Shown piece by piece: positions 16,431-17,355 of a stretch of DNA of 34,320 bases. Source of the stretch: Candidatus Polarisedimenticolia bacterium. GTDB taxonomy: Bacteria; Acidobacteriota; Polarisedimenticolia; Gp22-AA2. The position numbers and the translations under genes were made by a program. The first letter of the stretch is position 1. Every line of letters starts with the position of its first letter. The notes beneath the pieces were generated by a model. That model searched no databases. It was not told where the DNA came from and saw only the letters and a program-made list of their open reading frames with translations. The stretch lies in contig DASYUH010000114.1 in assembly GCA_036001465.1 (NCBI GenBank), forward strand, positions 1 through 34,320, in the 5' to 3' direction.

Positions 16431-16820
16431 TCAGTTCTTCGGGTAGAGGATCTCGGCGATCGCCTTGCGGGCGGCGTCGACATCGACGGAGTGGTCCGGC
16501 TGCTTGTGGAGCAGTTTGCCGTCGGCCGATCGGACCATCAGGCCGTGGTTTTTGAAACCGAGTTCCTTGATCATCGTCTTTGCTTCAGGGGTCGTGGCGT
16601 CGACGTTCTTGGCCTTCACCTGTCCGGGGAAATCCTGCTCGAGCCCGCTCACGGCGGGCTTCAACTTCGCGCACACCATTCAGCCGGGCAGGAAGAAGTA
16701 GGTCACTTGCAACGGCGTCTTGACCGGCGCGCCCTTCGCCGGGTCAGCCAGAGTCCCCCCCGCCGCCAGTCCCAGAGTCACCAGCAGGAGTGCCGCGGTC
16801 TGCAACGCTCTTCTGTTCAT
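16431..16820 (-). CDS. Secreted thioredoxin-like protein with in-frame UGA in a UxxC motif (putative selenoprotein)
   Basis: Reading through one TGA (16680-16682) gives 129 residues. A signal peptide (MNRRALQTAALLLVTLGLAA) leads to a thioredoxin fold: QVTYFFLPG-U-MVCAKLKP, then VKAKNVDATTPEAKTMIKEL and GFKNHGLMVRSADGKLL. UGA is codon 47 and Cys50 follows, so UGA stands exactly where the first Cys of a redox CxxC motif belongs. Both sides of the UGA are in the same frame and needed for one domain. A hairpin 20 nt downstream fits bacterial SECIS rules. GGAGG lies 6 nt before the chosen ATG; another ATG at 16919 with its own GGAGG would add 33 residues before the signal peptide. Annotated without recoding, this gene would be split into two fragments. 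Selenium insertion also requires selABCD elsewhere, not visible here. The alternative is a Cys-to-stop mutation. Confidence 0.75.
16642..16660 (-). promoter_or_regulatory. Candidate bacterial SECIS hairpin
   Basis: On the minus strand AGCCCGC-CGTGA-GCGGGCT forms a perfect 7-bp stem with a 5-nt loop, inside the coding region. Nineteen nucleotides separate the UGA from the stem and 26 separate it from the loop. Published bacterial SECIS rules, as I recall them, ask for an apical loop roughly 16-37 nt after the UGA with a G in its first two positions; here the loop starts CG. GC-rich DNA makes chance hairpins fairly common. Confidence 0.55.
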
Positions 16821-17355
16821 CGCCCACCTCCGCGGAAGAACGCCACCAGGGCATCGGTCGGACCGCAGCGCGAGGCCACCCGCCAGACTCAAGGGTCGGA
16901 TGAGACGAAGCAGGTTCATTGGGATCCTCCCTACGCAGGGATCTTATGTCTGGAAGCTTAGCAGGGTTCATGTCGCAGGTCACTCGGTTCGTTGATCTCA
17001 GTTGAGAAGGGTCGGTCAGCGGGGCGCCTCTGTGATAGGCCACATGGAGAGCGCCATGACGATCGAGACGGCAGCGGCGCCGGGCCATGCAGTCGTGTTC
17101 GCGATCTTGCGAACCTTACGGACAGGAGGAGGGGGGCCGCATTTTTGTAGAGGCGGCGGGAGTCGAACCCGCGCCGCCTCAGAACGCTAACTGGTTGATG
17201 GCGCGCGACTTTCGTCGGAACTCGCTGGAAACTCGTTGCCTTGTGGTCAATTCGTTGTGCTCTGGAGTTCTGAGTCCTCCCCAGTCCTGGAGATATTTTG
17301 GAGAAGGAGTACCCACCGGCAGAGCTGAAGGATGGGTTTCCGACTCATTCGGCTA
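16821..17355. other. Intergenic region with a tRNA-minihelix-like inverted repeat at 17150-17180
   Basis: About 535 bases without a convincing gene. The minus strand at 17180-17150 reads GAGGCGG, CG, CGGG, TTCGACT, CCCG, CCGCCTC. It folds as a 7-bp acceptor-like stem stacked on a T-arm with the classic TTCGACT loop, like a tRNA reduced to acceptor plus T-stem. No CCA follows (TACAAA) and no D or anticodon arm is present. It lies about 175 nt beyond the stop of the HTH-TPR gene on the same strand. It may be a degraded tRNA/tmRNA 3' end, an integration scar or a terminator. Confidence 0.35.

Follow-up and report, generated by a model that had tools for sequence, protein, structure and literature searches.

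A putative exported thioredoxin-fold selenoprotein family in Acidobacteriota that appears to occur only in the selenocysteine form

Thioredoxin-fold proteins in which selenocysteine (Sec, U) replaces the attacking cysteine of the CxxC redox motif are a known kind of bacterial selenoprotein. Among the prokaryotic selenoprotein families tabulated by a review of May 2026 (PMC13188914, Table 1) are thioredoxin itself (PF00085) and several thioredoxin-like families. Other small proteins of thioredoxin- or glutaredoxin-like character also hold Sec in a redox motif, including VPGUxxT (NF041383), HUIPC (NF047660), SaoT (NF040730) and the UXX-star models NF041114 and NF041211. TlpA, DsbE and their relatives, some of which contain Sec, are exported proteins of the same fold with either a UxxC or a CxxC motif. 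Here we describe a gene on a 34,320-nucleotide stretch of DNA (the window) from Candidatus Polarisedimenticolia bacterium, a soil-type member of the Acidobacteriota, that very probably encodes a further selenoprotein of this kind. The window corresponds to contig C114 in an assembly of 4.58 Mb that is rated 100% complete.

The gene occupies positions 16431..16820 of the minus strand, as do all of its features given below, and both its reading frame and its homologues indicate a product of 129 residues with Sec at residue 47. The frame starts with an ATG at 16820-16818 and ends with a TGA at 16433-16431, and the only other in-frame TGA before this terminal stop is codon 47, at 16682-16680. A preliminary description of the locus had placed this codon exactly on the first cysteine of a CxxC motif, and that placement is confirmed to the base. 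Within the sequence FLPG-U-MVCAKLKP, U47 and Cys50 (TGC, 16671..16673), the presumed resolving cysteine and invariant in the homologue alignment, make up a UxxC motif.

Comparative evidence for Sec at this codon comes from a family of 14 genes in 14 genomes, all of them Acidobacteriota, whose products share 36-65% identity with the window protein where aligned. A TGA is found at the first UxxC position in all 14 genes, and TGC or TGT in none. Searching 199 related genomes yielded 12 unambiguous members of the family, the window gene among them, every one with the in-frame TGA; one end-extended match shows two TGAs, the second being the stop codon that closes that gene. With a profile, 13 members were recovered at E below 1e-37 from 396 genomes of the phylum, all with TGA, and the next matches were CxxC thioredoxins at E of about 1e-7 or weaker together with one other TGA-containing protein. 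When 84,980 species were scanned with a motif that drew on the family alignment, six loci were found, all in metagenome-assembled genomes of Acidobacteria and all with TGA at the site, of which five were earlier members and one (L058) was new, for the total of 14. The window protein used by itself as a query against all species gave no match, and no relatives were found among plasmids or viral contigs. A lone in-frame stop codon is the usual sign of a pseudogene or a sequencing error, but the recurrence of the TGA in 14 separate genes from 14 genomes excludes a sequencing error, and purifying selection is evident on both sides of the codon, such that this class of explanation retains a negligible probability.

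These searches both support and correct the preliminary description. It had proposed that a UGA conserved in relatives would favor a selenoprotein, and that homologues with neither cysteine nor Sec at the position would speak against one; TGA is present there in every homologue. It had also expected homologues with cysteine at the site, yet no such form was found by profile in the 396 genomes of the phylum or by motif scan among the 84,980 species. Judged from the genomes searched, the family looks to be Sec-only.

A second line of evidence is a hairpin located exactly where it had first been noted, at 16642..16660, with a perfect 7-bp stem (16660-16654 paired with 16648-16642) that begins 19 nucleotides past the UGA and closes on the loop CGUGA. 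The bacterial selenocysteine insertion sequence (SECIS) model, as presented in the accessible part of the 2026 review, calls for a loop of 3-9 nucleotides with a G within its first two positions and a distance of 16-37 nucleotides from the UGA (PMC13188914). The window hairpin, with a 5-nucleotide loop starting CGU and a distance of 26 nucleotides, fits this published model; the preliminary description had also remarked on the CG at the start of the loop. The hairpin is kept in all 14 homologues, and codons +8 to +12 (PAVSG), which lie under it, are almost frozen at synonymous sites. Agreement reaches 11/11 for Pro CCC, 12/12 for Ala GCC, 13/13 for Val GTG and 10/11 for Ser AGC, compared with the 0.3-0.4 expected at these codons from pooled codon use. 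Third-position difference is 0.115 over codons +8 to +12 versus 0.549 over codons 14-71, and no other five-codon window in the gene is less variable. In the alignment, 90% of helix cells are paired and compensatory double changes occur at four of the seven stem pairs; in a control where the partners were slid by 1-3 columns, 20-45% were paired and zero to three pairs showed a double change. Because its synonymous sites are frozen and its stem shows compensatory double changes, the hairpin is, on this comparative evidence, a conserved SECIS-type RNA element under selection at the RNA level.

Decoding of UGA as Sec also depends on dedicated machinery, and its absence from the genome had been named at the outset as grounds for abandoning the proposal. 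SelA (451 bits), SelB (347 bits), SelD (365 bits) and a tRNA-Sec with anticodon TCA were all found in the same genome, so the organism has the parts to decode UGA in this manner. Its selD gene (L017, around position 1531) also carries a TGA, in the context HARSGG-UGA-AAKLSP (SGGUAAKL), at the position where SelD is known to have its catalytic Sec; selD is thus itself a selenoprotein gene in this organism. SelA is present in all genomes of the 199-genome search that carry a strong match to the family, which is weak support because SelA is common in the group anyway (147/199). A suppressor tRNA or a changed genetic code could insert some other amino acid, since the frame stays open whichever residue the TGA encodes. 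Against this idea, TGA doubles as the terminal stop of the gene, the site is a catalytic cysteine position, and a full set of Sec machinery accompanies a conserved SECIS-type element, so decoding as another residue is extremely improbable.

The sequence around the UGA does permit one arrangement that involves no recoding, in which the UGA terminates a short secreted peptide and translation of the remaining half of the gene restarts at an ATG directly after it. The juxtaposition TGA-ATG is indeed present in the window and in five other aligned homologues. In 7 of the 13 aligned genes, however, the next codon is CCG, CCC, GCG or CAG, and restarting therefore cannot serve as a general explanation. 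Moreover, protein-level conservation extends to the segment VTYYYLPG ahead of the UGA, and identity runs across the TGA. Codon positions 1, 2 and 3 change at 0.15, 0.16 and 0.43 before the TGA and at 0.31, 0.26 and 0.50 after it, the third varying most on either side. As the preliminary description had anticipated, strand 1 (residues 37-43 in an AlphaFold2 model) precedes the UGA and the remainder of the fold follows, and the two parts belong to one confidently predicted structure. The frozen hairpin would also be without a reason if translation ended at the UGA. Two separate frames are accordingly given very little credence.

Some observations do weigh against the view that codon 47 is read as Sec in a conserved selenoprotein. 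Only two sequences, L032 and L033, supply the compensatory changes in the stem, which thus amount to few events, and each of the outer two stem pairs is unformed in 4 of 13 sequences; RNAalifold retains the inner five. When the stretch of the window after the UGA is folded alone, it is no more stable than its shuffles (z -0.6, with 53 of 200 as good). It is thus the evolutionary evidence, with TGA and hairpin kept in 14/14 homologues, and not the folding of a single sequence, that places the hairpin beyond chance. The gene is missing from the other four genomes of its genus, so it is dispensable there, and the flanking amidohydrolase has relatives in that genus where the selenoprotein is absent. 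Furthermore, the gene neighborhood is common to only three genomes of one genus, in two of which a DUF885 gene adjoins the family gene. Because the neighborhood is not conserved beyond that genus, it supplies no operon clue to function. Taken with these reservations, the apparent read-through of the UGA, the RNA element and the decoding machinery are backed by both sequence and evolution.

Whether the family had already been described was left open by the preliminary description, which called the protein a putative new selenoprotein. No Pfam model scores above its cut-off; the window protein reaches 17.3 bits with PF00085 against a gathering score of 23.5, and 9 of 12 members match that model weakly (best E 1.1e-4). 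Likewise, the window protein scores well short of the cut-off of every NCBIfam 20.0 model, and other members give weak E-values at most. The Sec-containing thioredoxin of the review (PMC13188914, Table 1, as accessible) shares with the window protein its fold, the place of UxxC and the use of Sec as the attacker. The window protein differs in falling below the gathering score, in having an export signal, in carrying His-Gly instead of the cis-proline, and in having no cysteine form among the genomes searched. NF041383, NF047660, NF040730, NF041114 and NF041211 are absent from the NCBIfam scan of the family at E <= 0.1 and have other conserved residues, and the UXX-star-type models NF045501 and NF047338 weakly match one member each at E 0.08-0.1. 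TlpA, DsbE and their relatives are reported for no member by the Pfam and NCBIfam scans, and the window family, unlike them, has no cis-proline. In the open-access literature, the accessible part of the 2026 catalogue lists no family with this motif and these residues, although its broad thioredoxin heading could cover them (PMC13188914). The family is apparently undescribed and represents an unusual variety of the known UxxC thioredoxin-fold selenoproteins.

A secreted, thioredoxin-like protein had been proposed initially, and structural prediction agrees as to the fold. The AlphaFold2 model is a thioredoxin fold whose predicted local distance difference test score (pLDDT) is 97-98 over most of residues 41-120, and the best structure matches to the model are solved thioredoxins (87-89 residues, Z 11-13; the top match has Z 12.9 over 87 residues with a root-mean-square deviation of 1.7). 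The fold is therefore predicted with confidence. A predicted signal peptide, MNRRALQTAALLLVTLGLAAGGTLA, is encoded at 16746..16820, whereas in several homologues its place is taken by cysteines resembling a lipobox (for example LPLAGC, IVAAC and ALVGC), both being read by eye. These N termini suggest that the family is probably exported, as a lipoprotein in many relatives. Invariant residues include U47, C50, H92, G93, H110 and R118. Alignment with solved thioredoxins puts His92-Gly93 (16542..16547) at the Ile-cis-Pro place, and the cis-proline before strand 3 is absent, with His-Gly instead, in all aligned members. This proline reportedly exceeds even CxxC in conservation across the fold class; it probably contributes to the substrate site and may also prevent metal binding (PMC2757866). 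That a Sec protein has lost it is the most peculiar trait of the family.

The most likely function, held with moderate confidence, is that of an exported oxidoreductase of the thiol-disulfide type. At the UGA of codon 47, Sec-tRNA brought by SelB would be used in place of termination, with the help of the hairpin 19 nucleotides downstream, and the product would leave the cytoplasm by means of its N-terminal export signal to act extracytoplasmically. There, the selenolate of Sec47 may attack a disulfide or another oxidized substrate, and Cys50 would resolve the intermediate through a selenenylsulfide. We infer the export, the chemistry and the direction of electron flow in this scheme. Alternatively, the selenoprotein could bind or pass on a metal or metalloid at an exported site formed by Sec47, Cys50 and the invariant His92, a less probable but serious alternative for a Sec-only thioredoxin-fold family without cis-proline. 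An invariant His-Gly stands where the residue that perhaps guards against metal binding (PMC2757866) would be, export of the protein is probable, and His110 provides a second invariant histidine. However, UxxC and the thioredoxin fold suit ordinary redox chemistry, no metal-related genes were identified among the partly annotated neighbors, and the placement of the histidine near the site is taken from sequence alignment.

A more specific role would be electron donation to a secreted peroxiredoxin-like selenoprotein in extracytoplasmic peroxide defense. This suggestion arises from one genome (L045), where the family gene lies 31 nucleotides downstream of a secreted AhpC/TSA-like gene with its own TGA. 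Close homologues of the AhpC/TSA-like gene, at E below 1e-30, are however present in only three of the screened carrier genomes and in many non-carriers, and such a partnership is judged unlikely. As a constant partner, the AhpC/TSA-like gene was rejected after co-occurrence was tested, since it does not follow the family.

The AhpC/TSA-like gene (L045, 5549-6193, minus strand) merits mention in its own right. Its in-frame TGA lies in the context GGWUPYC, it has 14 close homologues with TGA in the phylum, and no NCBIfam model scores above its cut-off. Similarly, the plus strand of L074, in another genome, encodes an exported thioredoxin (FHPR-U-LGC) with a TGA at the first UxxC position and a normal TPH cis-proline, known from this single sequence. 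These two genes hint that acidobacterial selenoproteomes are under-annotated.

Other features of the window were also recorded. A Shine-Dalgarno sequence, GGAGGTGG, is recognizable at 16824..16831, 3 nucleotides before the ATG, and most homologues have similar sites ahead of their start codons. The region upstream of the gene showed no sigma-70-type promoter, and Rfam gave no match in the window. A dispersed repeat at 17144-17322 has further copies, 80-92% identical, in C32, C48 and other contigs of this genome, and contains GGCGGGAGTCGAACCC at 17155-17170, whose complement resembles a tRNA T arm; no tRNA is predicted at this repeat.

Cysteine homologues exist for nearly all known selenoproteins, and current discovery methods depend on them, according to the accessible part of the 2026 review (PMC13188914). 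The authors of deep-Sep note that their method may filter out families without such homologues, and that the sole family formerly believed to be of this type was glycine reductase selenoprotein A (PMC12013277). If the family described here is truly Sec-only, it would escape search methods that rely on cysteine homologues, and it would imply that soil-type phyla hold selenoproteins that are missing from the catalogues. The absent cis-proline would offer a clean test of the role of that residue, and a Sec-only family in Acidobacteriota would, if true, provide a case in which to test why Sec is retained.
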